Part shown: positions 5,891 through 26,545 of the stretch, piece after piece
Layout of the letters: every line of letters starts with the position of its first letter
Position numbering within the stretch: position 1 is the first letter of the stretch
Assembly: GCA_944385465.1 (NCBI GenBank)
Contig: CALWXH010000012.1
Span: forward strand, 1 to 40,640
Length of the DNA: 40,640 nucleotides
Direction: 5' to 3'
From: an uncultured Oscillospiraceae bacterium
Lineage (GTDB): Bacteria > Bacillota > Clostridia > Oscillospirales > Oscillospiraceae
Position numbers and translations under genes: made by a program
Notes under the pieces: model-generated
Seen by the model: the letters and a program-made list of their open reading frames with translations, nothing else
The model's database searches: none
Told to the model about the DNA's origin: nothing

Positions 5891-6032
5891 CCACGGGCAG
5901 AGCCCGCGGGGGCCCCGTTTTTTTAACTCCTCGGCGGAAATGAATTCCGCCTGCGGCAATTCTCCGCTCCGCTACGAATTGACGCGCCGCCCGGCGCGCC
6001 CGCGCGGTGCGCGGGTAGAAGGAGGCCGCTCC
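5891..6032. repeat. Hairpin-rich intergenic element, copy at uvrB
   Basis: Between two copies of the uvrB end lie successive hairpins: 5894-5906 (CGGGC/GCCCG), HP1 5933-5951 (GGCGG, loop AAATGAATT, CCGCC), HP2 5957-5981 (CAATTC/GAATTG), HP3 5983-5998 (CGCGCC/GGCGCG), HP4 5999-6015 (CCCGCGC/GCGCGGG). The same order, with the same HP1 loop but different paired stem bases, is found at 26410-26545 and 15411-15525. Confidence 0.75.
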
Positions 6033-6034
6033 TC

Positions 6035-8008
6035 TCACTTCCCTCTCAACTCGATGATCTGGTCTCTTAAAGCGGCGGCCAGCTCGAACTCCAGCATCTT
6101 GGCGGCCTCCTTCATGGCCTTCTCCAGGCGGGCGATCTCGGCGGCCTTCTGCTGTTTCGTCATGGCCTTGACCTTGCCCTGGCGCTCGGCCGAGGCCACG
6201 TCCTCCGCCGTGGCGGAGATCTCCAGCAGGTCCCGCACCGACTTGACCACGGTTTTGGGGGTGATGCCGTGGGCTTTGTTATAGGCGTCCTGTTTCTCCC
6301 TTCTGCGCTCGGTCTCGTCCATGGCCCGGCGCATGGAGGGGGTGATGGTGTCCGCGTAGAGGATGACCATGCCGTCGGCGTTCCGGGCCGCCCGGCCGAT
6401 GGTCTGGATGAGGGAGGTCTCGCTTCTCAGGAAGCCCTCCTTGTCCGCGTCCAGGATGGCCACCAGGCTCACCTCGGGCAGGTCCAGGCCCTCCCGGAGC
6501 AGGTTGATGCCCACCAGCACGTGGAAGGTGCCCAGGCGCAGGTCCCGGATGATCTCCATGCGCTCCATGGCGTCGATGTCGTGGTGCATGTACCGCACCT
6601 TGATGCCCGCCCCCTGGAGGTAGGCGGTCAGGTCCTCGGCCATGCGCTTGGTGAGGGTGGTGACCAGCACCCGCTCGTTCCGGGCGGTGCGGGCGTTGAT
6701 CTCCCCGATCAGGTCGTCGATCTGCCCCTCCACCGGCCGGACCTCCACCCGGGGGTCCAGCAGGCCGGTGGGCCGGATGACCTGCTCCACGATCTGCCCC
6801 GACCGCTCCCGCTCGTACTCCCCGGGGGTGGCGGAGACATAGACCACCTGGTTGAGCCGCTTCTCGAACTCCTCGAACTTCAGCGGCCGGTTGTCGTAGG
6901 CACAGGGGAGCCGGAAACCGTAGTCCACCAGGGTGGTCTTCCGGGCCCGGTCCCCGTTGTACATGGCCCGCACCTGGGGCAGGGTGACGTGGCTCTCGTC
7001 GATGAACAGCACAAAGTCACGGGGGAAGTAGTCCAGCAGGGTGTGGGGGGGCGAGCCCACCGGCCGCCCCTCGATGACCCGGGAGTAGTTCTCGATGCCG
7101 GAGCAGTAGCCCAGCTCCTGCATCATCTCCACGTCGTACAGGGTGCGCTGTTTGATGCGCTGGGCCTCGATGAGCTTATTCTCTTTTTCAAAGAAGGCCA
7201 CCCGCTCCTCCAGCTCCCTGTAGATCTCCTGGATGGCGGCGTCCATCTTCTCCTTGGGGGTGACATAGTGGGTGGCCGGCCAGATGGGGATGTTGGTCAG
7301 CCGCCGGATGGGCACACCGGTGACCACGTTGATCTCGCTGATGCGGTCGATCTCGTCCCCGAAAAACTCGATGCGCAGGGCGGTGTCCTTCCAGTAGGCG
7401 GGCCACACCTCCACCGTGTCCCCCCGTACCCGGAACATGTTGCGCTCAAAGGCCACGTCGTTGCGCTCGTACCGGATGGCCACCAGCCGCTTCAAAAGCT
7501 CCGGGATGGGGATCTCCATTCCCACCCGCAGCGCCACCATCATGGAGGCAAAGTCCTCCGGCTCGCCCAGGCCATAGATGCAGGACACGGAGGACACCAC
7601 AATCACGTCCCGCCGCTCCAGCAGGGAGGCGGTGGCGGACAGGCGCAGCCGGTCGATCTCGTCGTTCACCGAGGAGTCCTTCTCAATGAAGGTGTCCGTG
7701 TGGGGGATATAGGCCTCCGGCTGATAGTAGTCGTAGTAGGAGACGAAGTACTCCACCGCGTTGTGGGGGAAGAACTCCCGGAACTCAGCGCACAGCTGGG
7801 CGGCCAGCGTCTTGTTGTGGGCCAGCACCAGGGTGGGGCGCTGCACCGCCTCGATGACCTTGGCCATGGTATAGGTCTTGCCTGAGCCGGTGACACCCAG
7901 CAGGGTCTGCTCGTCCAATCCCAGCTCAATGCCCCGGGCCAGGGCCTCAATGGCCTCCGGCTGGTCCCCGCTGGGGGTGTATTCGCTCACCACCTGAAAT
8001 TCCGGCAT
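6035..8008 (-). CDS. uvrB: UvrABC system protein B
   Basis: A 657-residue DNA helicase-like ATPase, the central subunit of nucleotide excision repair that verifies damage and recruits UvrC. Seen: Walker [12 protein letters not shown] at 38-48, the β-hairpin region [16 protein letters not shown] near 92-107, [17 protein letters not shown] as DEAD-type box, the helicase motif QTIGRAARN, and a C-terminal UVR domain ([14 protein letters not shown]...ALRDQIIEL). Normal length. The ATG at 8008 has GGGGAGG at good distance; an upstream in-frame ATG at 8038 lacks one. It heads the run ending in uvrA and is preceded by a LexA-box promoter, so SOS induction is expected. Confidence 0.98.
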
Positions 8009-8045
8009 ATCCCGCACCTCCCCGTGCGCTCTCCCCATATGGGAA

Positions 8046-8076
8046 GATGCCCGAAAGCCTCGTCCTTCCGGGCATC
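8046..8076 (-). other. Stem-loop in the uvrB leader
   Basis: On the minus strand GATGCCCG pairs with CGGGCATC across a 15-nt loop, between the mapped promoter and the uvrB ribosome binding site. It has no U-tract, so a stability or processing role is more likely than termination. Confidence 0.5.
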
Positions 8077-8097
8077 TCCGCCGCTTCTGTCAGTTCT

Positions 8098-8126
8098 ATT
8101 ATATTCGAACATACGTTTGCAGTCAA
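8098..8126 (-). promoter_or_regulatory. uvrB promoter with LexA (DinR) box
   Basis: Minus-strand TTGACT (8121-8126), a 17-bp spacer and TATAAT (8098-8103). The spacer holds CGAACATACGTTTGC (8106-8120), a match to the Bacillus-type LexA/DinR consensus CGAAC-N4-GTTYG. A repressor bound there would block RNA polymerase directly. It starts only 3 bp beyond the radC stop. Confidence 0.9.
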
Positions 8127-8129
8127 TCC

Positions 8130-8834
8130 TCATGTGCCGTCCAGATACCCGGAGGCAACCATGGAGACCATCTCATTGGCGGCCACCACAAAGTGGTCCA
8201 CCAGCTCCACGTGGACCTGGCGCAGCAGCTCCCGCAGCTCCCGGGTGGCGCGCACATCCGCCGAGGAGAACACCGCCACGCCGGACACATGGTTGTGGGC
8301 CAGGGCCACCCGGCTGGCGTTGCAGGCCAGCGCCGTCTCCACCACCTTCCGCTTGGCCACCCCCACCTGGTCCAGGATGCCCTCCCCCAGGGGGCGGCAG
8401 GCGATGAGCTTGCTCTTGGCGTCCAGGCACACCAGGTAGGCCACCTCGTTGCGGGCGCCGAAAAACAGGGGCAGGAGCAGCTGCTCATAGTCCCAGTCGG
8501 TGAGCACCTGGCCGGACACGTCGCTGGTCCGCTCCATATACCGGGCGGCCACCGCCGGGACCAGGCGCAGCAGGGCGGCGGTGTTGGCCCCCACCCCCTT
8601 CACCTCCAGCAGCTGCTCATAGGTGGCGTTGAACACCCCGGCCAGATCGCCGAACCGCTCCACCAGGGCGTGGGCCAGCGGGTTCACATCCCCCTGGGGG
8701 ATGGCGTAAAACAGCAGCAGCTCCAGCACCCGGTGGTCGGCCATGCCGTTCAGCCCCCGGGCCAGGAATTCCTCCTTGACCCGCTTCCGGTGGCCGGTGT
8801 GGATGGACGGCCCGTCCTTCTTATTTTGCCCCAT
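8130..8834 (-). CDS. radC: RadC family JAB-domain protein
   Basis: A 234-residue RadC homologue. N-terminal helix-hairpin-helix region (KGVGANTAALLRLVPAVAARY) is followed by the JAB/MPN metalloprotease-like domain with AHNHVSGVAVFSSAD, the JAMM motif His-x-His...Ser...Asp; the usual HNHPSG has Val in place of Pro here. RadC proteins are common in Firmicutes; a repair role was claimed early and later questioned, so function stays open. The start at 8834 overlaps the 3' end of pyrE by 14 bp, suggesting coupling. A GGAGG is present but about 16 nt away. Confidence 0.9.
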   Translation of the reverse strand: MGQNKKDGPSIHTGHRKRVKEEFLARGLNGMADHRVLELLLFYAIPQGDVNPLAHALVERFGDLAGVFNATYEQLLEVKGVGANTAALLRLVPAVAARYMERTSDVSGQVLTDWDYEQLLLPLFFGARNEVAYLVCLDAKSKLIACRPLGEGILDQVGVAKRKVVETALACNASRVALAHNHVSGVAVFSSADVRATRELRELLRQVHVELVDHFVVAANEMVSMVASGYLDGT

Positions 8835-9492
8835 AGGTGTTCAGGTAGGCCTCCATCCGCTCCCGCATGGCATCGTCAATGTAGACTTTCCCGTCCACCG
8901 GCTTGTTGTGGAGGGTGTCGATGATCTCCCGGATGGTGACGATGGGATAGACCTGGATGCCGTAGTCCTGGCGCAGCTCGTCCAGGGTGGTGCACTCCCG
9001 GGTGCCCCGCTCCATGCGGTCCACGCTGACAAACAGGGCTTTGATGTTCACCTTGGCCACGTGCTTGAACAGCTCGATGGACTCCCGCACGGCGGTGCCG
9101 GCGGTGACCACGTCCTCCACAATGGCGATGTCGTCCCCGTCCTGGGGCTTATAGCCCACCATGGTGCCCCCTTCGCCGTGGTCCTTGGCCTCCTTGCGGT
9201 TGAAGCAGTAGGGCAGGTCCCGGCCGTAGTCCCGGTACAGGGAGGAGGCGGCGGCCACCACCAGGGGGATCCCCTTGTAGGCGGGGCCGAACAGGGCGGT
9301 GATACCCTGGGGCATGTGCTCCTGGATGCAGGCGGCGTAGTAGTCCCCCAGGCGGGCGGCCTGGGCGCCGGTCTTGTAGTTGCCGGTGTTGACGAAATAG
9401 GGGGTCTTGCGCCCGGATTTGGTGGTGAAGTCCCCGAAGGTGAGCACGCCGGAGCGCACCATGAAGTGGATGAATTCTTCCTGATAAGTCAT
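8821..9492 (-). CDS. pyrE: Orotate phosphoribosyltransferase
   Basis: A 223-residue type I phosphoribosyltransferase that joins orotate and PRPP to orotidine 5'-phosphate in pyrimidine synthesis. Seen: the PRPP-binding motif DIAIVEDVVTAGTAVRES near 121-138, the catalytic-loop region CFNRKEAKDHGEGG, and the N-terminal TKSGRKTPYFVNTGNYKTG typical of PyrE. No other pyr genes are nearby, so it stands outside a pyr operon here, coupled instead to radC. It has its own promoter at 9535-9563. Confidence 0.96.
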   Translation of the reverse strand: MTYQEEFIHFMVRSGVLTFGDFTTKSGRKTPYFVNTGNYKTGAQAARLGDYYAACIQEHMPQGITALFGPAYKGIPLVVAAASSLYRDYGRDLPYCFNRKEAKDHGEGGTMVGYKPQDGDDIAIVEDVVTAGTAVRESIELFKHVAKVNIKALFVSVDRMERGTRECTTLDELRQDYGIQVYPIVTIREIIDTLHNKPVDGKVYIDDAMRERMEAYLNTYGAK

Positions 9493-9534
9493 ACCCTACA
9501 CTCCCTTTTCTGTTTTGGATGGGTGAATCATAAT

Positions 9535-9563
9535 ATTATACCATTCTTCCCAGCCCAGGACAA
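9535..9563 (-). promoter_or_regulatory. pyrE promoter
   Basis: Minus-strand TTGTCC (9558-9563), 17-bp spacer, TATAAT (9535-9540), about 40 bp upstream of the pyrE ATG. No attenuator or PyrR-binding fold is apparent in the short leader. Confidence 0.7.
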
Positions 9564-9607
9564 GGATTTCTTCCTCGTTTCCCCCGCTCCGGCCCAGGAA
9601 ATACACG

Positions 9608-9650
9608 AAAAAAAGGGGCGCGGCTTCTCCCGGTGGAAAAGCCGCGCCCC
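9608..9650 (-). terminator. Intrinsic terminator after the degV-like gene
   Basis: Minus-strand stem GGGGCGCGGCTT (9639-9650) with AAGCCGCGCCCC (9615-9626), then a run of seven T residues. It closes the udp-degV transcript. Confidence 0.9.
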
Positions 9651-9659
9651 GCCATTTCG

Positions 9660-10526
9660 TCAGATGCGCACAGTGCCCACGCCCAGGGCCCCGGGGCCGG
9701 TGTGGCTGGCAATGGAGAGGGTGAGGGGCTCGCCCTCGATCCGCTCCATCTCCGGGAAGGCCGCGTGGACCTCCTCCCGCCACTCCTCCCGCAGCGCGTC
9801 GGACACTTTGCTGTATGCCATTTTCACCACCAGGTGGCCGGTGTCCCACAGCGGCTTGAGCCGGCCCTCTACGTCGGCCCGCACCCGCTCCAGCATGAGC
9901 TTCCGGGCGGCTTTCATCCCCCGGACCTTGCCGATGGCGGTGAGCTTTTCCCCCCGGATCTCCATCACCGGCTTGATGTTCAGCATGGTGCCCGCAATGG
10001 CCTCCACCCCGGTGACCCGGCCGCCCTTGCGCAGGTACTTCAGCGTGTCCACCGAGACATAGATGCATCCGTCGTCCCCCTGCTCCTCCAGGGTCTCGCG
10101 GATGGCCCGGGCGTCCATCCCCGCCGCCACCATGGCCAGGGCGTCCAGCACCGAGTGGTGCTGGGTCACGGAGATGCGCCGGTTGTCCGCCACCTGTACC
10201 CGGCCGCCGTAACTCTCCGCCAGCATCTGGGCTGTGGCGCAGGAGGCGCTGAGCCCCGCGGACATGGGGATGTAGACCAGCTCGTCGCAGCGCTCCAGCA
10301 CCCGGTCCCAAACGGCCATCACATCCCCCGGCGCCGGTTGGGATGTGGCAATATCCGACCCGGACAGCTGCTTTTCATAAAACTGCTCCTGGGTCAGGTC
10401 CTCGCCCTCATAGTAAATCTTTCCGTCGATCAGCACCGGCATGGGCACCACGGCCACACCCAGCTTTCTGCCCTCTTCCACGGAGATTCCGCTGTTGCTG
10501 TCTGTCACAACGGCGACTCTTGGCAT
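9660..10526 (-). CDS. DegV family fatty-acid-binding protein
   Basis: A 288-residue DegV protein (EDD fold), a class that binds fatty acids and hands them to fatty acid kinase FakA in Firmicutes. Seen: VAVVTDSNSGISVEEG at the N-terminus, VVPMPVLIDGKIYYEGEDLT, TSQPAPGDVMAVWDR, VYIPMSAGLSASCATAQ, VSVDTLKYLRKGGRV and the C-terminal SHTGPGALGVG, all family signatures in order. The start at 10526 is set by MPRVAVVTDS with GGAGAGGAG upstream; the longer frame is an antisense artefact. It follows udp by ~54 bp and ends just before a strong terminator. No kinase partner is nearby. Confidence 0.93.
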   Translation of the reverse strand: MPRVAVVTDSNSGISVEEGRKLGVAVVPMPVLIDGKIYYEGEDLTQEQFYEKQLSGSDIATSQPAPGDVMAVWDRVLERCDELVYIPMSAGLSASCATAQMLAESYGGRVQVADNRRISVTQHHSVLDALAMVAAGMDARAIRETLEEQGDDGCIYVSVDTLKYLRKGGRVTGVEAIAGTMLNIKPVMEIRGEKLTAIGKVRGMKAARKLMLERVRADVEGRLKPLWDTGHLVVKMAYSKVSDALREEWREEVHAAFPEMERIEGEPLTLSIASHTGPGALGVGTVRI

Positions 10527-10579
10527 GTGTTGAACGGCTCCTCTCCTGTCTGCGCCCGGCCATGCGCCGGGCGCGCGTC

Positions 10580-11371
10580 CTACCCTTCTGCGGGCACTGT
10601 GTCTGTCTTGCGGCGGTCCCTCTGGATGAGCAGCTTCACCGCTTCGATCCCCGCCCGGACGGCGGCGTCCGTATCCTCGTCCTGGATCTGGTCCAGGCCG
10701 GCGGCGTTGCGCTCCTGGTTCCAGATCACGTGGAACACCGATCCACACCGCACCCCCCGGGCCGCGGCCACAGTGAACAGGGCGGCGGACTCCATCTCAG
10801 AGGCCAGCACCCCCAGGCGCTTCCACGCCTCCCACTTGCTCTGCAGCTCATAGGACACCGGCATGCGCTGGGGAGAATGCTGCCCATAGAAGGAGTCCTT
10901 GCACTGGACCACACCGGCGTGCCAGTCCCGCCCGGAGGCCCTGGCTGCGTCCACCAGGGCGGTGAGCACCTCAAAATCCGCCACCGCCGGGAACTCAATG
11001 GGGGCGTACTCCCGGCTGGTGCCCTCCATGCGCACCGCGCCGGTGGCCACCACCAGGTCGCCGCTCTTCACGTCCAGCCGGATGCCCCCGCAGGTTCCCA
11101 CCCGCACAAAGGTGTCCGCGCCGATGTTGGCCAGCTCCTCCATGGCAATGGCGGCGGAAGGGCCGCCGATGCCGGTGGACACCACGCTCACCGGCTCCCC
11201 CGCCAGGGTGCCCGTGTAGGTGACGAACTCCCGGTTGGCCGCCACCCGGACCGGATTGTCAAAATACCGGGCGATCTGCTCGCTGCGCCCCGGGTCTCCG
11301 GGGAGCAGGCAATAGCGCCCCACATCTCCGCCCTTGCAGGCAATGTGGAATTGCCGTTCTCCCGCGATCAT
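10580..11371 (-). CDS. udp: Nucleoside phosphorylase, probably uridine phosphorylase
   Basis: A 263-residue NP-I family phosphorylase that would split uridine (or a related nucleoside) with phosphate into base and ribose-1-phosphate. Seen: [16 protein letters not shown] (phosphate-binding GDPxR), [36 protein letters not shown] and [17 protein letters not shown], the EMEs substrate-ribose motif. Overall pattern fits uridine phosphorylase more than purine nucleoside phosphorylase, but specificity is inferred. The ATG at 11371 is chosen over an upstream one for its GGAGGG site. It is the first gene after a promoter at 11408-11436, followed by the degV-like gene. Confidence 0.88.
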
Positions 11372-11407
11372 CCCGTCACCCTCCCTCCACGGCACCTTAT
11401 GGTTGTC

Positions 11408-11436: not shown

Positions 11437-11450
11437 GGGATATCCGCACT

Positions 11451-12676: not shown

Positions 12677-12712
12677 GGTTCTCTTCCTCTCTCCCCTTGG
12701 GGACAATATGGC

Positions 12713-14884: not shown

Positions 14885-15189
14885 AGAACAAGGCCGCGCA
14901 CCGACCTTTGCAGACAGCATCCACCCGTTACCCATACAGCCGGCTCAGGATCGGCAGCCCCGCGGCACACGCGGCGGTCCGCTTAGTGCTGCTCGGTTCC
15001 CCGCCTGACACGGTTCACGGGACCACGTTGCGCGGGACCGATCCATCATCGCTGCTTATATGGGGCAGACGGCACATACTGCCTCCGGGGGCCGGGATTC
15101 ACTCCTGCTGTAGCGGATTGCAGGTACAGGGCACCGCTATCTCCCCAGCTAGCGCGGCCTTGTTCCGCGCTGAAGCACCGGAACAATCG
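14868..15189 (-). ncRNA. ffs: Signal recognition particle RNA (large, Firmicutes type)
   Basis: On the minus strand the conserved Alu-domain block GCTAGCTGGGGAGATAGCGG and TGCCCTGTACCTGCAATCCG appear near the 5' end, and the SRP54-binding hairpin GTCAGGCGGGGAACCGAGCA, with a GGAA tetraloop, near the middle. The 5' region (GTGCTTCAGCGCGGAACAAG) pairs with the 3' region (CTTGTTCTGTGCTGAAGCAC) to close the long rod. Length ~320 nt including the terminator is right for the Bacillus-type RNA. It is transcribed from a consensus-like promoter and ends immediately upstream of dnaX. Confidence 0.95.
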
Positions 15190-15296: not shown

Positions 15297-15372
15297 GGGC
15301 CTGTAGCTCAGCTGGGAGAGCGTTCGGTTCGCATCCGAGAGGTCGACGGTTCGATCCCGTTCAGGTCCACCA
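15297..15372 (+). tRNA. tRNA-Ala (anticodon CGC)
   Basis: A 76-nt cloverleaf. Acceptor GGGCCTG pairs with CAGGTCC and contains the G3-U70 wobble that identifies alanine tRNAs; D-stem GCTC/GAGC; anticodon stem TTCGG/CCGAG around loop TTCGCAT, giving anticodon CGC; T-loop GTTCGATCC; CCA is encoded. It reads alanine codon GCG, useful in this GC-rich genome. Confidence 0.95.
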
Positions 15373-15410
15373 TAAAAATAGCCACACCGAAAGGTGTGGC
15401 TATTTTTATG
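15371..15410 (+). terminator. Terminator after tRNA-Ala, also the edge of a direct repeat
   Basis: CATAAAAATAGCCACACC pairs perfectly with GGTGTGGCTATTTTTATG around GAAA; the T-run sits in the descending arm, so it can act on either strand. An identical hairpin is at 17522-17561. Confidence 0.85.
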
Positions 15411-15554
15411 GATGCCGGGGGAATTAAAATGCTCAGGGCAAATGAATTGCCCCTGCGCCAAGGTTTTGGGCCACAGGCCCAAAACGCTTGTACGGCGCAT
15501 CAGCGCCGCCCCACCCTGTGGGGCCCCACCTTCTCTTGGCATCTATACTGTTTC
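15371..15554 (+). repeat. ~183-bp direct repeat, copy 1 (hairpin element at tRNA-Ala)
   Basis: Begins in the tRNA CCA end and runs through the terminator hairpin, HP1 15434-15455 (loop AAATGAATT), HP2 15459-15490 (CAAG...CTTG with inner GGGCC/GGCCC), HP3 15493-15508 (CGGCGC/GCGCCG), HP4 15510-15523, to GGCATCTATACTGTTTC. Nearly identical to 17522-17705; differences are concentrated around HP3/HP4, for example ATCA against AAAA in the HP3 loop. Confidence 0.9.
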
Positions 15555-15986
15555 CGGGTTTTTTCTCCTCGAAATTTCACCGAGAATTCCATAGATGCAA
15601 ACCGCTGTTTCAGGGCAACTGGGGGGAATTGCCCCCCTTCTCCCCTGAGATTTGGGTGGGCATTCCCTGTTAGCGCCCTTTTTGAAACCAGCTTACTCAA
15701 AAAGGGCGCTATCTTTTTCAAAACAGAATACACAAAAGAATACACAAAGTTGTAGACGTCAATTTGTTGGTCGTGATGGGCCACCAGAACAGCGGTCCAG
15801 GCGGTGGCCAAATGACCTAGAGCTGTGGCAACCACTTTGTCCAAAGCACACAACAAAAAACCGTCCTACACCATAAAAAGTGCGGGACGATCTTTACGCA
15901 ATACTTTTAGATCTGTCAATTCATAAGGATTGGTGTTTCACGATTGTGCCTTTTTCTTTTGGTATCGAAGCATTTTGAGACATCCA
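15555..15986. other. Stretch without a convincing gene, left part of the AT-rich island
   Basis: Holds a GGGGGG-AATT-CCCCCC-type palindrome near 15621-15643 and a strong hairpin with T-run at 15671-15720. From 15720 to 15900 short open frames on both strands have no family resemblance; they may be the eroded end of a former mobile element. Base composition drops sharply here compared with the neighbouring genes. Confidence 0.5.
15671..15717 (+). terminator. Intrinsic terminator in the island
   Basis: TAGCGCCCTTTTTGA (15671-15685) pairs with TCAAAAAGGGCGCTA (15697-15711) and is followed by TCTTTTTC. The arms themselves contain T-runs, so it could also stop the leftward small-gene operon. Confidence 0.75.
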
Positions 15987-16208
15987 CTACCAAGCCAAGC
16001 GGCAACCCAAGCCAGCGTCATTGCCAGAGAGAAACCTCGGACGAAAAAAGAGAGATGGAACACAAAGTATTCCCATTGCCAAGCAAAACACAATGCCGGA
16101 CTTAGTTATACTTTTTTCTTTCCACCCATTCCAATATAGAATCGCTGCGCTCACTCCGCATGTCACGACTAACCCAAGAATATCCCACCAAAGCTTTCCG
16201 CCCATCAT
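15987..16208 (-). CDS. Small two-helix membrane protein
   Basis: A 73-residue protein not assigned to a family. Residues ~5-26 (WWDILGLVVTCGVSAAILYW) and ~38-55 (GIVFCLAMGILCVPSLFF) are hydrophobic and should span the membrane, separated by a short lysine-rich turn (WKEKSITKSG). The ATG at 16208 is chosen for GGGGGAG 6 nt upstream; it overlaps the end of the FAIM-like gene by 4 bp (ATGATG over the TGA). Last gene of a four-gene leftward AT-rich operon. Confidence 0.65.
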   Translation of the reverse strand: MMGGKLWWDILGLVVTCGVSAAILYWNGWKEKSITKSGIVFCLAMGILCVPSLFFRPRFLSGNDAGLGCRLAW

Positions 16209-16690
16209 CGCTTTCTCCCCCTGACAATATACACGAGGTTGAGTACCAGAATAACCAGCACGACCACCATCGTTCCATTCCAGCGGGACATGTCTCCTCC
16301 TTGCAGTGCAACAACCAAATACAGGATACAGGCCAAAGCCATAAGCAGCACCATCACCCACGAACAACGGCGCATATTCCGTGCATGGCGAGATATGGAT
16401 TCTTCATAGGACATGTCCAGAGCATTCTCGTAGCCTTCCTGTGTATTCAGAGATTTTCCGTCTACAAAAAACTCTAGTTTTTCGCTAGGCCAAACCACAA
16501 AGTGACAGGTCTTTCCCCACAGCTCCAGAGTTTCATCCAGGCCTCCCCGAGTAGCCTGAAAGCTCTTACGGTAGACAGTTTTTTCAAATTTATCGTCTAC
16601 CCATAAGACATACTTGTTATTCATCACCTGACAAAGGATTACATGAGCCACTCCATCCACAGTGGCGCTCCAGTTATGCTCTTTTGTCAT
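16205..16690 (-). CDS. FAIM1-like domain protein with C-terminal membrane anchor
   Basis: A 161-residue protein. Residues ~5-85 (NWSATVDGVAHVILCQ, NNKYVLWVDDKFEKTVYR, LWGKTCHFVVWPSEKLEFFV, DGKSLNTQEGYE) form alternating strands with the W-x-x-x-V-D-G and V-D-G-K-S-L pattern reminiscent of Fas apoptotic inhibitory molecule 1 (FAIM1) β-sandwich domains; this is recognition from memory, not a search. Two hydrophobic helices follow (VMVLLMALACILYLVVALQG and TMVVVLVILVLNLVYIV) with a basic tail. The start at 16690 has GAGG upstream. It overlaps the preceding small gene by 17 bp. Role unknown; a membrane-tethered binding module is a reasonable reading. Confidence 0.65.
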   Translation of the reverse strand: MTKEHNWSATVDGVAHVILCQVMNNKYVLWVDDKFEKTVYRKSFQATRGGLDETLELWGKTCHFVVWPSEKLEFFVDGKSLNTQEGYENALDMSYEESISRHARNMRRCSWVMVLLMALACILYLVVALQGGDMSRWNGTMVVVLVILVLNLVYIVRGRKR

Positions 16691-16982
16691 TCGTTGCCTC
16701 ACTCCCGTTGTCCGACCGCTTTGCAAAGTATAGCTTTCGAAACTTCAACACAGTCCCCACCAGGAGCAATAACCCCAGTGACAATAAAATGACCGAGGCC
16801 ACCGGTTCATCAGAACTCAGACCAAGTGCCAAATAAAATATCAAGGCAATCACAGCCCCAAAAAATAGGACCACCAATGCAATTAACGGATAGCGAATCC
16901 AACGACTCAGTTTCTTGTTCCCGCTGGTCTCTATGACCCCATCCACAATCAACTCCAAGAAAAACTCAAAAAGAATATCCAT
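16674..16982 (-). CDS. Small membrane protein
   Basis: A 102-residue protein of unknown family with two strong hydrophobic segments, IRYPLIALVVLFFGAVIALI and SVILLSLGLLLLVGTVL, an acidic amphipathic N-terminus (MDILFEFFLELIVDGVIE) and a charged tail (KRSDNGSEATNDKRA). Start ATG at 16982 with GGGGAG upstream. It overlaps the FAIM-like gene by 17 bp and follows the 65-residue gene by 24 bp, so the four are one transcript. Confidence 0.65.
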   Translation of the reverse strand: MDILFEFFLELIVDGVIETSGNKKLSRWIRYPLIALVVLFFGAVIALIFYLALGLSSDEPVASVILLSLGLLLLVGTVLKFRKLYFAKRSDNGSEATNDKRA

Positions 16983-17006
16983 GTTCTCTCCCCTATTGCT
17001 TCGGCA

Positions 17007-17204
17007 TCAAATGAAATCCAGCAGCGAACGGACAAACTTCCGCAGATCACGACTGGAAACGGCACAGGTAATCACCAGTAAGAGTCCCACAAGGAAAAGC
17101 CATAAGCCGGTATCAGGGCCAGCACCAGCAAACCCAAACCCTATGAGCAGCACACCAAAAACTGCGATTATCTTCATGATACGCTTGCCCAATGTCTTGC
17201 TCAT
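17007..17204 (-). CDS. Small two-helix membrane protein
   Basis: A 65-residue protein: basic start MSKTLGKRIMK, two hydrophobic helices (IIAVFGVLLIGFGFAGAG and GLWLFLVGLLLVITCAV) and a basic end (SRDLRKFVRSLLDFI). No family recognised. The ATG at 17204 has GGGGAGG upstream at a slightly long distance; the longer frame from 17273 has none. First gene of the AT-rich operon. Confidence 0.6.
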   Translation of the reverse strand: MSKTLGKRIMKIIAVFGVLLIGFGFAGAGPDTGLWLFLVGLLLVITCAVSSRDLRKFVRSLLDFI

Positions 17205-17256
17205 ACAATAATTCCTCCCCTTTGTCACTCTTCTGTACGTTGCTATGATACCACAT

Positions 17257-17390
17257 CTACCCACTACTGTCATCTATAATATAGATGGGGCCAATCTCGT
17301 TGCTTCTGCTTGGGTAATACCCTGTTTCTTTGTTGGAATCTATGAATAGTTTTCCCTCCTCCGTTCCAATAAAAATTCTGAATGCGTTCG
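17257..17390 (-). pseudogene. Possible gene fragment upstream of the small membrane genes
   Basis: The minus-strand frame reads FKELRGQTIPNAFRIFIGTE, then EGKLFIDSNKETGYYPSRSN and EIGPIYIIDDSSG before its stop, which looks like real protein sequence. The frame stays open to an ATG at 17502, but that part enters the edge of the repeat and has no ribosome binding site. A gene truncated by the repeat at 17500 is the likeliest reading. Family unknown. Confidence 0.35.
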
Positions 17391-17521
17391 GGATTGTCTG
17401 ACCCCGCAGTTCTTTGAAGGGAACAACAACTGGTAACATACTTTCAATAAATGATGATATTTGTACCAGATGGATACTCACCTTGATGTAATTTGGGTGC
17501 ATCTATACTGTTTGGATGACA

Positions 17522-17705
17522 CATAAAAATAGCCACACCGAAAGGTGTGGCTATTTTTATGGATGCCGGGGGAATTAAAATGCTCAGGGCAAATGAATTG
17601 CCCCTGCGCCAAGGTTTTGGGCCACAGGCCCAAAACGCTTGTACGGCGCAAAAGCGCCGCCCCGCCGTGCGGGGCCCCACATTCTCTTGGCATCTATACT
17701 GTTTC
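17522..17705 (+). repeat. ~183-bp direct repeat, copy 2
   Basis: Near-identical to 15371-15554, including the terminator hairpin and HP1-HP4. It is itself framed by GCATCTATACTGTTT at 17499-17513 and 17690-17704, which could be a short target duplication of the unit. The two copies enclose ~1.97 kb of AT-rich DNA. Confidence 0.9.
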
Positions 17706-17806
17706 GATGTTTCAAAAAGAAGGACACGCTGAAGGCAGTTGCCTTTTGTTTTGGGTTCCGCCGCCCGGAGGGCGGCTCCACCCTTCCCCACGGGGCCCCG
17801 ACAACA

Positions 17807-21160: not shown

Positions 21161-21190
21161 GATTCCCTCCCATATCTGAGGAACCTGTTT

Positions 21191-21221
21191 CCGGGCGGGG
21201 CGCCGTGGGCGCCCCGCCCGG
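21191..21221 (-). other. Stable hairpin between livK and livG
   Basis: CCGGGCGGGGCGCC pairs perfectly with GGCGCCCCGCCCGG over a 3-nt loop. There is no T-run on the minus strand. Such hairpins after binding-protein genes usually protect the 5' message from decay so that more binding protein is made than ATPase. Confidence 0.7.
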
Positions 21222-21258
21222 TGTTCAGGTCAAGTCTTGGTCGCAGATGGTCTGTGTT

Positions 21259-22581
21259 TTACTTCTGAGTGGCGTTGCCTTCCACGTAAGAACCGGTGGT
21301 GGAAATCTGATCGTACACAGTGTTGTCGATGATGACCAGCTTGTAGCCGCCCTCACCGTCAGACTGCCACTGGCCGCCGGAAATCACGGTGTCGGAGTAG
21401 GTCAGGCCGTTCATCTCCTGATCGTACTTGATGGGGCCGACGATGGTCTCCACGTCCAGGGACTTCATGGCCTCCACCACGGCGGCCTTGTCGGTGGTGC
21501 CGGCGGTCTTGAATGCGTGGACAGCCAGCTCCAGAGCGGCGTAGGCATAGCCGGCGGGCTGGGGCATGCTGCGCCCGTCGTTGCCCTCGGAGTAGGCGGC
21601 GCCCAGATCAGCGCAGTTCACGCCGGTCAGGGCGGACACCCAGGGATAGGTGGAATCCCACCACACCTCGGTCATGATGCCTTCCACGTTGTCGCCCAGG
21701 GCGGCGATGTCGCCGGGCAGCAGGCAGCACTTACCCATGGTGATGCAGCCCACTTCCACGCCGGCGGAGATCACCTGGGTGAACAGGTCGCTGAAGTTGG
21801 GGGGGGTGTTGGTGCCGGCCAGGATGTCGATGCCCTCGCTCTTGAACTTGTTCACGATGTTGGTGAAGTCGGTGGTGTCGGGGGGATACTGCTCGGGATC
21901 CACCAGGGTGTAGTCCTCGTCCACCCGCTTGGCGAACACAGTGTGCCAGGCGGTGCCGTCAGCGTCGTTGGCGAAGGCCAGGCCCACCTTGGTGTCCTTG
22001 GAGGGGGGATAGCCGGCGGCAGTCCACAGAGCGCGGTACTGCTCATACACCTTCTCGATGGTCCAGAAGGCGTGGACGGTCCACTGGGCGTCCGCAGTCA
22101 GGGCGCCGGCCACGGCGTCCACGGGGGCCTGGATGGCGATGCAGGGCACGCCGAAGGCCTCAGCGGTGTTCACCACGGGGATGACGGTCTCGGGGGTCTG
22201 GATGGCGATGAGCATGTCCACCTGGTCCTGCTGCACCAGCTTCTGCGCCATCTCGGTGCAGGTGCCGGAGTCAGAACCGGAGTCATAGTAGACGACCTGG
22301 ATGTTCTTGGTGGCGCCGTCCACCTCAATGCCGCCCATGGTCTCGTTCACATAGGTCTCGATCTGCTCGATGACCCACTTGGCGCCTTCGCCGTTGCCGG
22401 CCAGAGCGCCGGTCTCGGGGTTGACGTAGCCGATCTTGATGGTCTCGCCGGTGGAACCGCCGCCGCCGTTGCCGCCGTTGCCGCCGTTGCCGCCGTTGCC
22501 GCTGTTGTTGTTACAGCCAGCCAGCAGGCCCAGGCACATGACGCCGGCCAGCGCCAGAGCAAGGATGCCTTTCTTCTTCAT
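21259..22581 (-). CDS. livK: Branched-chain amino acid-type ABC transporter substrate-binding lipoprotein
   Basis: A 440-residue periplasmic-binding lipoprotein. MKKKGILALALAGVMCLGLL then AGC gives a signal peptide with lipobox (lipidated Cys near 23). A Gly/Asn-rich linker of (GGN)n follows, then a type I binding fold: IKIGYVNPETGALAGNGEG, DSGTCTEMAQKL, GLAFANDADGTAWHTVF, GMTEVWWD-like ITEVWWD region and PAGYAYAALELAVHAF. Aromatic/acidic motifs are shared with the sensor lipoprotein at 24835-26127 (CLLPGDIAALGDNVEGIMTE against CLFSSDVAALGELADGLITE). The ATG at 22581 has GGAG 8 nt upstream. First gene of the liv operon. Ligand not readable. Confidence 0.94.
   Translation of the reverse strand: MKKKGILALALAGVMCLGLLAGCNNNSGNGGNGGNGGNGGGGSTGETIKIGYVNPETGALAGNGEGAKWVIEQIETYVNETMGGIEVDGATKNIQVVYYDSGSDSGTCTEMAQKLVQQDQVDMLIAIQTPETVIPVVNTAEAFGVPCIAIQAPVDAVAGALTADAQWTVHAFWTIEKVYEQYRALWTAAGYPPSKDTKVGLAFANDADGTAWHTVFAKRVDEDYTLVDPEQYPPDTTDFTNIVNKFKSEGIDILAGTNTPPNFSDLFTQVISAGVEVGCITMGKCCLLPGDIAALGDNVEGIMTEVWWDSTYPWVSALTGVNCADLGAAYSEGNDGRSMPQPAGYAYAALELAVHAFKTAGTTDKAAVVEAMKSLDVETIVGPIKYDQEMNGLTYSDTVISGGQWQSDGEGGYKLVIIDNTVYDQISTTGSYVEGNATQK
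22463..22498 (-). repeat. 9-bp tandem repeat in the livK linker
   Basis: Four consecutive CCGCCGTTG units (plus-strand reading) encode Gly-Gly-Asn repeats right after the lipidated cysteine. Slippage would change linker length without harming the frame. Confidence 0.85.
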
Positions 22582-22638
22582 CTTTTCTTCTCCTTTCAAA
22601 AATTCCTGTTTTCCGCCCCGTTTCCCAGGGGCGGCTCA

Positions 22639-22664
22639 GTAAAAAACCCCGGGTTTGTCGGGGT
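22639..22664 (-). other. Hairpin with T-run in the liv leader
   Basis: On the minus strand ACCCCG pairs with CGGGGT over ACAAACC and TTTTT follows, between the proposed promoter and livK. It looks like a small terminator or attenuator but lies very close to the expected transcript start, so its role is uncertain. Confidence 0.4.
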
Positions 22665-22671
22665 CAAGGGC

Positions 22672-22725
22672 ATTTTACCAAAACAACCTTAAAGAATCCT
22701 TAACTTCCCCCTTACCTAACCTTAA
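22672..22725 (-). promoter_or_regulatory. liv promoter with OmpR-type direct repeats
   Basis: Minus-strand TAAAAT (22672-22677) is a plausible -10; no good -35 is present. Instead TTAAGG boxes (plus-strand CCTTAA) start at 22687, 22698 and 22720, that is 11 and 22 bp apart, with a degenerate CCTTAC at 22710. Direct repeats at one helical turn overlapping the -35 are typical of activators of the OmpR/PhoB family, such as the regulator encoded next door. Confidence 0.65.
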
Positions 22726-22796
22726 AGTCACCGGGAATGTTGCGTGTAGAGTGGAGAAAATCAGCCCCTGTTTTTGGGCAGTCCGCACAATCAAAC

Positions 22797-22829
22797 GGCC
22801 CGTCCATGCCGCAATGGCATAGACGGGCC
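22797..22829 (-). terminator. Terminator-like hairpin after the histidine kinase gene
   Basis: GGCCCGTCCATGCC pairs with GGCATAGACGGGCC over a 5-nt loop (one mismatch). On the minus strand only a weak GTTTGATT follows. Confidence 0.6.
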
Positions 22830-22842
22830 TGACATTTGGCTA

Positions 22843-24153
22843 TCAATGGTCCGACGGCGCCCCCCGCTGCCGCAGGGGCAGGGAGACGGTGAACACCGTG
22901 CCCTTGGGCCGGTTGTGCTCGGCGGTGATGCGCCCGCCGTGGCGCTGGGTGATGAGGCTGGCGATGTACAGCCCCAGGCCGCTGCCGTCGGCCTTGCCCT
23001 GGTGGCGCTCCTCCCGGTAGAACCGGGTGAAGATCTTGTCCATGGCCTCGTCGCTGATGCCGATGCCCGAGTCGGACACGGCCAGCACCGCCCGGTTGTC
23101 CTCCGCCCGGGCACTCACCCGGATCATGCCGCCGGGCTCGGTGTACTTGATGGCGTTTTCCAGCAGGATGGCCAGCAGCTCGGTGAGCAGCTGCCGGTCG
23201 GCGGTGAGGGTGAGGCGGGGCTGGAGGCGGGTCTCCAGGGTGGTGCCCATGGCCTCCGCCTGGTAGCGGAAGGGCTCGATGAAGTCGTTCACCAGCTCTT
23301 CCAGGTCCACCTGCTCCAGCCGCAGGTGCATTTCCGAGGCCTGCAGCTGCACCATCTCCAGCAGGTTGGAGGTCATCTTCCGCAGGCGGCTGCTCTCGGA
23401 CAGGGAGTTCATGATCAGGTCGCTGCGCTCGATGATCTTCTTCCCCGGCGTCTCCAGCAGCAGCTCCAGGGAGCTGTGGATGACGGCCAGAGGGGAGCGC
23501 AGCTCATGGGAGGCGTAGCTGATGAACTCATCCTGCTGGGACCAGGCCTCCGTGACGCCCCGCACCAGGGATTTGCTCAGATACCACCCCGCCACCAGCA
23601 CCAGCAGCATGGCCGCCGCGGTGCACATGAGCAGCACGTCCCGGATGATGGCCAGGGAGGCCTCCACATCGGTGGCGTCAGAGGCCAGCTGGACATAGTA
23701 GTCCCCGCCGGAGGCGTCGGTTACCCGCATGGTGTGGGTGCGGTAAAAGAGGGTGGCGCCGTTGCGCTGCACCCGCTCGGTGCGGGTGCGGCCGCTGTCC
23801 CGGGGGGAAAAATCGATGTTGAGCATGTAGTCGAAGGAGGCCAGGTACTGGGAGTTGAGGATGTTCCCCCCCTCGTCCCGCACCAGCAGGAAGATGCGGT
23901 AGGTGATGACGTAGGCGCCCCCCTCGTGGTAGACGATGTTGCGCCCTTCCAGGAAGTTGGCCAGCGCGCCGTCGGGGTCCCGGTCGATCATCTCCTCCGC
24001 CTCGTCCATCTGCCCGTCCATCTCCTCATACAAGGCGCTGGCGGAGATGGAGTACACGATCAGGTCGAAGATGGAGAACAGCAGCAGGAACACCACAAAG
24101 AGGATGCCCATGTACTGCAGCCGCCGCTTCAGCAGAAAATTCTTTCTATCCAT
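22843..24153 (-). CDS. Sensor histidine kinase
   Basis: A 436-residue membrane kinase. Helix 1 is ~15-37 (MGILFVVFLLLFSIFDLIVY), an extracytoplasmic domain spans ~38-168, helix 2 is ~171-193 (DVLLMCTAAAMLLVLVAGWY). Then the phosphoacceptor His216 in ISYASHELRSPLAV, N box LLENAIKY (Asn333), G1 DSGIGIS (Asp361), F box FTRFYR and G2 GSGLGLYIAS. Only ~23 residues separate helix 2 from His216, too few for a HAMP domain. Start overlaps the regulator gene by 8 bp. The gene order lipoprotein-regulator-kinase suggests that the ligand-bound lipoprotein touches the sensor domain. Confidence 0.94.
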   Translation of the reverse strand: MDRKNFLLKRRLQYMGILFVVFLLLFSIFDLIVYSISASALYEEMDGQMDEAEEMIDRDPDGALANFLEGRNIVYHEGGAYVITYRIFLLVRDEGGNILNSQYLASFDYMLNIDFSPRDSGRTRTERVQRNGATLFYRTHTMRVTDASGGDYYVQLASDATDVEASLAIIRDVLLMCTAAAMLLVLVAGWYLSKSLVRGVTEAWSQQDEFISYASHELRSPLAVIHSSLELLLETPGKKIIERSDLIMNSLSESSRLRKMTSNLLEMVQLQASEMHLRLEQVDLEELVNDFIEPFRYQAEAMGTTLETRLQPRLTLTADRQLLTELLAILLENAIKYTEPGGMIRVSARAEDNRAVLAVSDSGIGISDEAMDKIFTRFYREERHQGKADGSGLGLYIASLITQRHGGRITAEHNRPKGTVFTVSLPLRQRGAPSDH

Positions 24154-24838
24154 ACAGTTCGCTGTCGTCGGTGAGGATGTAGCCGATCCCCCGCACGGTC
24201 TTCAGGTACTTCTCATAATCGTACTGGCGCAAGGCCTTGCGGATCTGGCTGGCGTACACCTCCACCACGGAGAACTCTGTGGTGGAGTAAAAGCCCCACA
24301 CCCGCTGAAACAGCCGCTCCTTGTGGACGATGACGTTCTGGTTTTCCACCAGGCACAGGAGAAAGTCGAACTGCTTGCCGTGCAGGTCCAGCTTCCCCTC
24401 CCCGATCCGGGCGGTGCGGGTGTTGGTGTTCATCACCAGGTCCAGGAAGGTAAAGGAGGATTCCGGCGGGGCCAGGTCCCGCCGGGCCCTGCGCACCAGG
24501 GCCTCCAGCCGGGCCTGGAAAATATCCAGGTCAAAGGGCTTGGCCAGGTAGTCGTCCGCCCCGGTGCGCAGGGCCTTGACCTGGTCCGCCGACTGCCCCA
24601 GGGCGGTGAGCATGAGCACCGGGGTGGCGTTTCCCGCCGCCCGCAGCTGTTCCAGCACCTCGTAGCCGTTGAGCTTGGGCATCATCACATCCAGGATGAC
24701 CACGTCAAAACTCTCCCGGAACAGGCGGCGCAGCCCCTCTTCCCCGTCAAAGGCCTGGGTCATGTCAAACCGGTGCTTCAGGCTCTCGCAGATGTTGTTG
24801 GAAAGGATCTTGTCGTCCTCAATAATCAATGCCTTCAT
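24146..24838 (-). CDS. OmpR/PhoB family response regulator
   Basis: A 230-residue regulator. Receiver domain 1-118: acidic pair at 8-9 (IIEDD), phosphoacceptor Asp50 in VVILDVMMPK, Thr78 in LMLTALG and Lys100 in YLAKPF. Winged-helix DNA-binding domain ~128-225 with LHGKQFDFLLCLVENQNVIV, LFQRVWGFYSTTEFSVVEVY and VRGIGYILTDD. The ATG at 24838 overlaps the lipoprotein stop by 4 bp. It is the natural candidate to bind the 11-bp direct repeats in front of livK; autoregulation is possible but I saw no matching repeat at 26200. Confidence 0.95.
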   Translation of the reverse strand: MKALIIEDDKILSNNICESLKHRFDMTQAFDGEEGLRRLFRESFDVVILDVMMPKLNGYEVLEQLRAAGNATPVLMLTALGQSADQVKALRTGADDYLAKPFDLDIFQARLEALVRRARRDLAPPESSFTFLDLVMNTNTRTARIGEGKLDLHGKQFDFLLCLVENQNVIVHKERLFQRVWGFYSTTEFSVVEVYASQIRKALRQYDYEKYLKTVRGIGYILTDDSELYG

Positions 24839-26127
24839 GAGCCGCCTCCTGTGCCTGCGTCCGATCCCGGAAGCAGAATGATATCCGCGGTGATCTCCAT
24901 TGCGGGGATGAGATAGTTGCCCACGATTTCCTGCCGGAAGGTGCCGTCTTCCTCCCGCACCCACTGCCCGGCCACGCAGGACATGAGGGCCACATGCTCG
25001 TCGTTGAAGGCCACGTGCCCCACCACGGTGTCCAGGTCGGTGGCGGCGGCAGCCTGATTGACGGCGTCCAGCTCCAGGGAGCCCGCCCGCTTCAGAATGT
25101 CCCAGAGGATTTCCACATTGGCGTGCTTGTACCCCACCGTGGGGGGCACCATGGACAGCCCGGGGTACTGCTCCAGATAGTCCTGGGCCAGCTGGGCGCT
25201 GCTCCAGCCGGTGATGGAGGAGGAGTAGGGGAACTCGGCGCTCCACCACACCTCGGTGATGAGGCCGTCGGCCAGCTCGCCCAACGCCGCCACATCGGAG
25301 GAGAACAGGCAGGACTTGGCCACGGTACACATCTTGGGCCGGTACTGGGTGGCGGTACACTGCCGCCAGAACGTGGAGAAATCATTGGTCTTCATCACGC
25401 CCAGGATGATATCGCACTGGGCCTGGGCAAAGGTGTCGATGATGGCGCTGTAGTCGTCCATGTCCAGGGAGTACCGCCCCGGGTCCACAACGGTGTAGCC
25501 CTTGGCCTCGGCAAAATCGGTGATGAAGGTGGTGATCTCCACCCCCTCGGAGTCGTTGGCGGTGAGCAGGCCGATGGTCTTGTTGGTGTCCACCTTCTCC
25601 CAGGCGTCCAGGAAGCAGAGCATCTCCCGCTCGTTGTCGAAAAAGGTGTGCCAGGAGCTCTGATAGGGCCCGCCCATGGCCCAGGCGGAGGCGGGGGCGT
25701 CCACAGAGATACAGGGGATCTGGGCCCGCTCACAGGCGGCGGAGACCGGCGAGACCGTGTCGGCGGTGTGGGAGACGATCATGACGTCGATCCCGGCCTG
25801 AATCAGCTCCTGGGCGGCCTCTTCCGCCCCGGTGACCGTGGAGCCGGAGTCCCGGTAGATCAGCTCCATCCGGCACCGGCGGCCATCCAGCACCACCCCG
25901 CCCTGGCTGTTGATGGCGTCAATCGCGGTCTGCTCCACGTAAGGGGTGCCGCTCCCGAAGGAGGACAGCGTCCCGGTCATGGGGACGACACGGCCCACCA
26001 GCACGGTGTCGTCAAAAATCCAGTTGCCCTGGGCATCCTGCCCCGAGGGCGTCACCGACGCCGCCGGCTGGGTACACCCGGTCAGCAAGCACGCACACAG
26101 GGCAAGGACAAGTACACGCAGCCGCAC
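24835..26127 (-). CDS. Extracytoplasmic ligand-binding lipoprotein of a sensor operon
   Basis: A 430-residue LivK-type binding protein. A GTG start at 26127 is chosen because AGGAGG lies 7 nt upstream; the product then opens with RLRVLVLALCACLLTGC, a lipoprotein signal with its Cys near 18. Type I binding fold: VLVGRVVPMTGTLSSFGSGT, YRDSGSTVTGAEEAAQELI, GLLTANDSEGVEITTFITDF, and LITEVWWSAEFPYSSSITGW. No permease or ATPase lies in its operon; regulator and kinase genes follow with 4- and 8-bp overlaps. It is therefore more likely a ligand sensor than a transport subunit. It resembles the livK product nearby, so both may bind the same or related ligands. Confidence 0.9.
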   Translation of the reverse strand: MRLRVLVLALCACLLTGCTQPAASVTPSGQDAQGNWIFDDTVLVGRVVPMTGTLSSFGSGTPYVEQTAIDAINSQGGVVLDGRRCRMELIYRDSGSTVTGAEEAAQELIQAGIDVMIVSHTADTVSPVSAACERAQIPCISVDAPASAWAMGGPYQSSWHTFFDNEREMLCFLDAWEKVDTNKTIGLLTANDSEGVEITTFITDFAEAKGYTVVDPGRYSLDMDDYSAIIDTFAQAQCDIILGVMKTNDFSTFWRQCTATQYRPKMCTVAKSCLFSSDVAALGELADGLITEVWWSAEFPYSSSITGWSSAQLAQDYLEQYPGLSMVPPTVGYKHANVEILWDILKRAGSLELDAVNQAAAATDLDTVVGHVAFNDEHVALMSCVAGQWVREEDGTFRQEIVGNYLIPAMEITADIILLPGSDAGTGGGS

Positions 26128-26195
26128 GCAGGCACCTCCTCCATCCAGGCCGGGCTCTCCGGACCGCGGCAGTTTTATGCGGGAATATATCAAAA

Positions 26196-26224
26196 ATTAT
26201 AACCTACCGGGGGAAATTTTGCAA
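26196..26224 (-). promoter_or_regulatory. Promoter of the lipoprotein-regulator-kinase operon
   Basis: Minus-strand TTGCAA (26219-26224), 17-bp spacer, TATAAT (26196-26201), about 70 bp before the GTG start. Confidence 0.75.
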
Positions 26225-26270
26225 GCAAAAGCAACAGCCGGCCGCAGGGGGAATCTGCGGCCGGCTGTTG
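26222..26270 (-). terminator. Terminator downstream of ychF
   Basis: CAACAGCCGGCCGCAG (26232-26247) pairs perfectly with CTGCGGCCGGCTGTTG (26255-26270); the minus strand continues CTTTTGCTTGC. The T-run overlaps the next operon's -35. Confidence 0.75.
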
Positions 26271-26314
26271 AAACCTTCAGCGGGTTGTCCCCAGAAATGC
26301 GTCGTTTCCTCTGG

Positions 26315-26409
26315 ACGCGCCGGAGGTGCGAAGGCGCTTGCGCGCCCCACCGTCCAGGACGGCGTGAAACTCACACGTTGAACCGGAAGAGGATAATGTC
26401 CCCGTCCTG
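26315..26409 (-). pseudogene. Duplicate 3' end of ychF
   Basis: Direct repeat of 26514-26609 at a 200-bp offset. On the minus strand it encodes [12 protein letters not shown] and a stop, the exact YchF C-terminus, with synonymous changes (ATCCTCTTCCGG against ATTCTTTTCCGG). It also repeats ~55 bp of the hairpin element that follows the stop. Confidence 0.85.
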
Positions 26410-26545
26410 TGTTCCCCGTCGGGCGGGCCCGCCGGGGGCCCCGGATTCATCCAGGCCGGGGCGAAGTGAATCCGCCCCGGCCCAAGGTTTTTGCCCGTGG
26501 CAAAAACGCTTGCACGCGCCGGAGGCGCGAAGGCGCTTGTGCGCC
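26410..26545. repeat. Hairpin-rich intergenic element, copy at ychF
   Basis: HP1 26454-26482 (GGCCGGGGCG, loop AAGTGAATC, CGCCCCGGCC), HP2 26483-26512 (CAAG...CTTG with inner TTTTTGCC/GGCAAAAA), HP3 26515-26529 (CGCGCC/GGCGCG), HP4 26532-26545 (GGCGC/GCGCC). Order and HP1 loop match the copies at uvrB and tRNA-Ala; stem bases differ in a paired way. Confidence 0.75.

Follow-up and report, generated by a model that had tools for sequence, protein, structure and literature searches.

Hairpin elements between duplicated gene ends in Oscillospiraceae: a candidate non-coding integrative element with its own guide

A 40,640-nt stretch of DNA from an uncultured Oscillospiraceae bacterium (contig CALWXH010000012.1; hereafter the window) contains four copies of a small element composed of an ordered set of hairpins (HP). 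Two of them lie between duplicated ends of a host gene, and the break-point sequence recurs in inverted form just before HP4. The gene-end duplications and the inverted copy are absent from the original prediction, which had been made from the letters of the window alone and described the hairpins. From sequence comparison and by analogy with known systems, we tentatively read the unit, with somewhat less than even confidence, as a non-coding integrative element that would bring its own gene end, use the inverted copy as a guide and rely on an enzyme supplied in trans. In what follows, genomes are labelled G and loci of element copies L.

The hairpin family is real. The four copies were recovered where they had been predicted, and the predicted four-hairpin set (HP1 to HP4) is present in all of them; a further hairpin that had not been spelled out, HP0, has to be added, which reads GGGGCCCC...GGGG or is a terminator in the copies beside tRNA genes. 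Since copies 2 and 3 are 95% identical over 191 bp, the window does not offer four independent cases. An alignment of 22 copies, all from the source genome, shows HP1 as the best conserved of the four hairpins; searches were made with a covariance model. The claim that folding is selected is borne out by paired changes far above chance. In the 22-copy alignment, 93.4% of the cells are paired and 52 are double-changed, compared with 18.4 after shuffling and 6–16 in slid structures. In 130 model-fitted matches, whose alignment leans towards the structure, 97.3% of the cells are paired, 27 of 28 pairs show double changes, and 635 double-changed cells compare with 181 shuffled and 45–78 slid. A rival long pairing, between HP3 and the bases that follow HP2, was rejected, no covariation being visible by eye in the 22-copy alignment.

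The covariance search also yielded many more copies in Oscillospiraceae, as expected of the dispersed multi-copy family that had been proposed. At an expectation value (E) of at most 0.1, there are 39 matches in the 2.1-Mb source genome, the weakest at 26 bits. The relatives searched comprised 60 genomes, one per species: 37 of the same genus, source genome included, and 23 others. At E of at most 0.01, matches occur in 33 of the 60, namely 32 of the 37 and one of the 23; the latter genome, G042, belongs to another family of the order and has 65 matches, and G035 has 30 copies. A 29-base pattern of HP1 recovers at least 118 stretches from a collection with one genome per species. Eighty of these fall in Flavonifractor, Pseudoflavonifractor, Intestinimonas, Oscillibacter and Dysosmobacter, in other Oscillospiraceae and Clostridia, and in uncultured bacteria; the pattern is also present in five viral contigs. 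The covariance search left out 18 of the 118 stretches (L271–L288). No Rfam family matched the window at its curated cut-off, in agreement with the view of the family as undescribed. For L018, L003, L025 and L001, the lone overlapping match at E up to 0.5 was mir-1789, with 23.9 bits against a cut-off of 88, and a literature search gave no description of this hairpin family among the matches listed.

The typical locus has a fixed order: gene body (X), T, E1, rcT, HP4, HP3, HP2, HP1, HP0, T' and E2. E1 is continuous with the gene body, and E2 is an orphan copy of the gene end that begins directly after HP0, where short variable nucleotides mark the junction. Copy 1 is flanked in this way by duplicates of the terminal 81 bp of uvrB, and copy 4 by duplicates of the terminal 65 bp of ychF. 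The same architecture occurs at mutS, lepA, ileS, asnS, yhbY and groEL, all identified by curated models, and at an apurinic/apyrimidinic (AP) endonuclease-like gene. For infB, rpsI, miaA and typA, the names were read from the sequence and are unconfirmed by a model; the one locus tested, L034, matched nothing. In these common gut bacteria, the element is thus found in the ends of housekeeping genes such as uvrB, ychF, mutS, lepA, ileS, asnS and groEL, whose frames stay complete. In lepA, elements with a duplicated gene end stand at the 5' end as well as the 3' end (L024 and L029, contig C53).

Of the 130 model matches, six at contig ends and then 12 without a flank of 150 nt were dropped, which left 124 and 112 copies, respectively. 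A typical direct repeat (score of at least 20) was found in 51 of the 112 flanked copies, with the second repeat copy starting 26–61 nt after HP1. Mismatched pairs, a control with no demand on position, have their 99th percentile at 32.0 and their maximum at 53.0; 45 of these 51 copies score above 32.0. With the loci of the source genome and its relatives added, the set comprises 80 loci. Repeat lengths range from 28 bp (L031) to 154 bp (L004), with one of 20 bp (L017). The coding-frame test and the substitution count given below each used 76 of the 80 loci, with slightly different filters. A reading frame crosses the boundary on the HP4 side in 73 of the 76 loci; in 59 of these the HP0 side has no crossing frame, and in 14 it has one too. 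No locus has a frame across the HP0 side only, and three have none across either side. By codon-position GC content, 53 of the frame-crossing loci are gene 3' ends and 20 are gene 5' ends. Tandem units exist at L095, L099 and L032, as would be expected if one site were used repeatedly. Two tandem copies also stand at the 5' end of a gene at L011, the second cut off within HP2; this gene was read, without confirmation, as a translational GTPase (typA).

The inverted copy, rcT, repeats 9–20 nt of T, the sequence around the break, and lies just before HP4. A T/rcT score of at least 9 was obtained in 54 of 80 loci, compared with 21 of 955 mismatched controls; these 54 loci share with IS200/IS605 elements the complementarity between the foot of a hairpin and the cut site in the flank. 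T spans the break in 41 of the 55 loci scoring at least 8, with a median extent from -4 to +9. A lenient pattern that had no control placed a GGGGCC-like hairpin start no more than 5 nt from the end of rcT in 38 of these 54 loci and farther away in six; in 10 it found none. Judged by eye and without a statistic, T varies from gene to gene among the 54 loci, and no common core was seen at the crossover. Among uvrB orthologues, the T/rcT pairs are GAAAGAGGCGGC/GCCGCCTCTTTC in G006 and G020, GAAAGAAGCGGC/GCCGCTTCTTTC in G011 and GAAGGAGGCC/GGCCTCCTTC in G000, and rcT tracks third-position synonymous changes in T. Therefore, T and rcT are either kept complementary or made so at each insertion.

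Both gene ends bear the mark of coding constraint. Between E1 and E2, 239 synonymous and 88 nonsynonymous changes were counted, and the nonsynonymous share of 27% compares with 71% expected without constraint. Judging from these substitutions, the two ends have probably both been coding during most of their separate history, because an orphan that arose by local duplication would be expected to have decayed. Such constraint suits the transfer between lineages of a unit that carries its own gene end, or repeated excision. At L092 the coding repeat is identical and the terminators behind its two copies differ, which one duplication cannot give.

Insertion at the same gene also varies between species, as a mobile system would have it. 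In uvrB, compared across 21 genomes (G038, in which no T was found, G009, without a match, and G018, a fragment, were left out), seven genomes have a full element, two a remnant and 12 none that could be seen, the states having been assigned by hand. In a tree read without support values, the filled uvrB of G020 stands among neighbours without the element. The AP-endonuclease-like gene has the element in two and lacks it in 15 of the 17 genomes used, out of 19 (T was not found in G018 and G020). Between G006 and G020, the hairpins in uvrB are 97% identical, the last 300 nt of the gene 86%, and 1500 nt of it 88.7%. Faster evolution of E1 in uvrB was considered: average identities are 0.896 for X and 0.833 for the gene end E in pairs with the element (6 pairs), and 0.878 and 0.868 in pairs without it (15 pairs); the drop in E is also seen in some element-free pairs, such as G001–G010 with 0.890 (X) and 0.727 (E). 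The idea that elements of the same gene always form one lineage was rejected: only 16 of 51 same-gene pairs lie above the 97th percentile of different-gene pairs. Some same-gene elements are no more alike than different-gene ones, yet have the same T (L186, L104 and L234). In such genomes, gene ends may differ in history from the gene body, with effects on annotation and trees.

Two known systems suggest how these features could fit together. According to a study of IS608 (PMC5934647), a guide located 5' to a hairpin base pairs with the cut site, the target is kept in the left flank and is required for excision, and natural recognition concerns a tetranucleotide, longer pairing having been engineered. 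IS200/IS605 elements (IS608, ISDra2 and transposase-less relatives) resemble the present unit in their hairpins near the ends, the guide 5' of a hairpin and the target in the left flank. The complementarity described here differs in covering 9–20 nt across the cut instead of 4. Moreover, the hairpin family is tracked by no Y1 transposase, a host gene end lies between cut and guide, and the target varies by gene. IS200/IS605 elements insert without target duplication. Direct repeats do exist at the hairpin element, but are compatible with a gene end borne by the element.

The second parallel comes from fungal mitochondria, in which mobile endonuclease open reading frames (ORFs) make hybrid genes, as in Allomyces atp6 and Glomus atp6, atp9, cox2 and nad3. 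By the published account (PMC3630166), the insert supplies a new C-terminus while the native one stays behind as an orphan, and the two atp6 ends are 63.5% identical in DNA and 91% in protein. The likeness consists of a working and an orphan end and of protein kept while DNA differs; in the hairpin loci, E2 may be the native end. The mitochondrial units carry an endonuclease gene, whereas the bacterial inserts, about 140 bp long, consist of hairpins only, without an endonuclease ORF in the copies read; the latter also differ in having hairpins and rcT and in occurring at gene 5' ends.

The integrative, guided unit is proposed because the logic of rcT is like that of the IS608 guide and because of the mitochondrial parallel. 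It would comprise about 200–230 bp in the order t2, E1, (terminator), rcT, HP4, HP3, HP2, HP1, HP0, GGGG and a few further nucleotides, and would insert at t1|t2, a point inside a gene and close to either its 5' or its 3' end. E1, rather than E2, would arrive with the unit and serve as the functional end of the gene; E2, on this view the native end, would remain behind HP0. At the foot of the first hairpin, rcT could pair with T (t1t2) and, as in IS200/IS605, choose the target and mark the left cut on single-stranded DNA, the enzyme being supplied in trans. The original suggestion that folded single-stranded DNA is the substrate accordingly survives in part: its link to RAYT finds no support, and as the leading idea it may now draw on rcT. 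Should the guide reading hold, a short natural DNA element would pick long, arbitrary targets by base pairing. It is rather unlikely, though worth stating, that the unit is a protein-free, self-guided element with a piece of host gene as its left end, a 9–20-nt inverted target as its guide and a host enzyme as its mover. If this were true, a gene could own a line of elements homing into the same site across species, and the element would represent a new class of nucleic-acid-guided mobile elements.

Several observations weigh against an integrative, guided unit. No enzyme was found among the three families tested: the distribution of Y1_Tnp does not follow that of the element, G000, G006, G035 and G042 have no RVT_1 match, and tyrosine recombinases are present in all nine genomes tested, hence uninformative on the mover. 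The T/rcT score is below 9 in 26 of the 80 loci, a set that is partly non-independent, as tandem copies are included and three pairs are near-identical records. The typical repeat is absent from 61 of the 112 flanked copies; the six copies of G042 examined (L158–L162) lack it, and three of them score 26–44 for repeats elsewhere. Some of these copies lie beside tRNA-like sequence or terminators. The coding-frame figure of 73 of 76 stands without a random-position control. In L089 and L071, rcT is found after E2 as well, and can therefore predate a duplication. The young copies L089, L090, L092 and L077 have an E1 identical to E2, which a local duplication fits equally well. Furthermore, E1 of uvrB is only 79% identical between G006 and G020 against 97% for the hairpins, which is not expected of a unit moving whole. 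Finally, the proposal does not explain how one family comes by a different E1 and a matching guide from gene to gene.

The loci could instead be the work of host replication, an explanation that we consider unlikely but to be taken seriously. The new strand at a stalled fork would copy the gene end, snap back (T to rcT), jump to another hairpin element and return to T'; a long target duplication would result, and the alleles would spread by homologous recombination without a dedicated enzyme. Such a course would account for rcT as an inverted copy of local sequence, for the identical ends of young copies and for the lack of a tracking enzyme among the three families, and recombination between lineages would explain the synonymous differences between E1 and E2 and the mixed uvrB tracts. 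It is harder to reconcile with the recurrence of one architecture at many loci, with a gene body on one fixed side and never only on the other, and with the use of the same T in one gene by elements whose cores resemble each other no more than those of different genes do.

Less probable still, and in our view quite improbable, is a gene-tied cis element, in which T/rcT and the hairpins would influence termination, stability or replication through the gene's transcript or DNA, the duplication being a by-product. The fixed side relative to the gene and the lasting pairing of T and rcT in orthologues would agree with it, as would the resemblance of HP0 to a terminator in several copies, when read from the E2 side, and the position of tRNA genes: these lie within 300 nt on the HP0 side in four of 107 copies and in none on the other side. 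Occurrence at both gene ends (20 at 5' and 53 at 3' ends), absence from many relatives at the same gene, unrelated host genes and the existence of tandem arrays speak against such a role.

Target-primed reverse transcription of a hairpin RNA, leading to long, variable target duplications, is very unlikely. The range of repeat lengths, the variable nucleotides at the HP0 junction and a single RVT_1 match in G003 would be in line with it; the four RVT_1-free genomes named above argue against it, as do the element-free G012 and G015 with four and two matches, and the identical repeats of L092 followed by different terminators.

The mobilisation of the elements by RAYT, as TnpA-REP is thought to do with repetitive extragenic palindromes (REPs), had been suggested by the original prediction and is now the least probable of the explanations, close to dismissal: a RAYT-type Y1_Tnp gene does adjoin copy 1, as noted then, and is the sole Y1_Tnp match in the source genome, but such matches occur in nine of 32 element-bearing versus four of five element-free genomes of the genus and are absent from G003, G035 and G042, the latter two with 30 and 65 copies. 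The profile search (PF01797, E 0.001) misses diverged or decayed proteins, such as a decayed RAYT readable after uvrB in G022. The tetranucleotide GTAC, found between HP3 and HP2 in 20 of the 22 aligned copies (the remaining two have GTCC and GTCA), recalls GTAG, a hallmark of REPs (PMC8266576); GTAG beside a palindrome was not found in the 22 copies, in two of which it occurs only inside HP2. The RAYT frame holds a GTAG-type inverted pair of its own, GTAGGGGCGCACATTGTGCGCCC, at 5476–5498 and 5655–5677, and a similar inverted pair is present on contig C96 (869–891 and 921–943), a reversed-pattern control giving five hits versus six. This pair is probably the small REP family of the RAYT itself, unlike the hairpin element in sequence.

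Other classes share single traits with the element. REPs and bacterial interspersed mosaic elements with RAYT are likewise dispersed small hairpin repeats, and one RAYT is present in the source genome; the hairpin element differs in GTAC instead of GTAG, in the gene-end duplication and in the lack of a RAYT link. Integrative elements of tyrosine recombinases restore a gene with their own gene end and accrete in tandem at one site. An element-borne gene end and tandem accretion are common to both, whereas the hairpin unit has about 200 bp, no recombinase gene and no common core that could be seen. Miniature inverted-repeat transposable elements (MITEs) are small, non-coding and multi-copy, with terminal inverted repeats and a short target duplication of fixed length. 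The hairpin element is likewise small, non-coding and multi-copy; unlike MITEs, it shows no terminal inverted repeats, its ends differing by eye, and its direct repeats cover tens of base pairs (20–154 bp).

Table 1. Element copies and associated features in the window.
Feature	Position	Strand	Remarks
Copy 1, hairpin part at uvrB 3' end	5890..6017	-	covariance match, 52.4 bits
Copy 1 hairpins	HP4 5999-6015; HP3 5983-5998; HP2 5957-5981; HP1 5933-5951; HP0 5890-5916		by eye
Copy 1 rcT, inverted copy of uvrB 6102-6113	6018..6029	-	limits from sequence
Copy 1 E1, working uvrB 3' end including stop codon	6030..6110	-	repeat analysis
Copy 1 T, break point in uvrB, complementary to rcT	6102..6113	-	spans duplication end 6110/6111
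Copy 1 E2, orphan uvrB 3' end	5810..5890	-	86% identical; 10 coding differences counted, all synonymous
uvrB, host gene of copy 1	6035..8038	-	
RAYT-like Y1 transposase gene adjoining copy 1	5277..5804	-	PF01797; start codon by eye
Copy 2, after tRNA gene (15297-15369) and terminator replacing HP0	15371..15561	-	
Copy 2 model match	15427-15530		97.5 bits
Copy 3	17522..17712	-	95% identical to copy 2; model match 17578-17681, 98.8 bits
GCATCTATACTGTTT, twice around copy 3	17499-17513 and 17690-17704		
Copy 4, hairpins at ychF 3' end	26410..26544	-	covariance match, 54.3 bits
Copy 4 (L001) E1, working ychF 3' end and downstream bases	26545..26609	-	repeat analysis
Copy 4 rcT, inverted copy of ychF 26600-26613	26551..26564	-	
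Copy 4 T, break point within ychF	26600..26613	-	spans 26609/26610
Copy 4 E2, orphan ychF 3' end	26345..26409	-	91% identical
Second rcT and HP4/HP3 remnant, after copy 4 E2	26312-26346		
ychF, host gene of copy 4	26571..27764	-	

The interval between copies 2 and 3 (15562–17521) holds several small ORFs, one of which matches DUF2207_C weakly, at a score under the cut-off. A 2-kb composite element spanning both copies was considered and rejected: a similar spacing in G024 and G001 corresponds to a pair of tRNA genes that have one copy each. Near the tRNA gene of copy 2, a bacterial large signal recognition particle RNA is encoded on the minus strand (14894–15157). At 35421–38981, an ORF without a Pfam or NCBIfam match (36195–37190) lies between two repeat sets (D5, D12, D14–D18) that are spaced about 2.8 kb apart.

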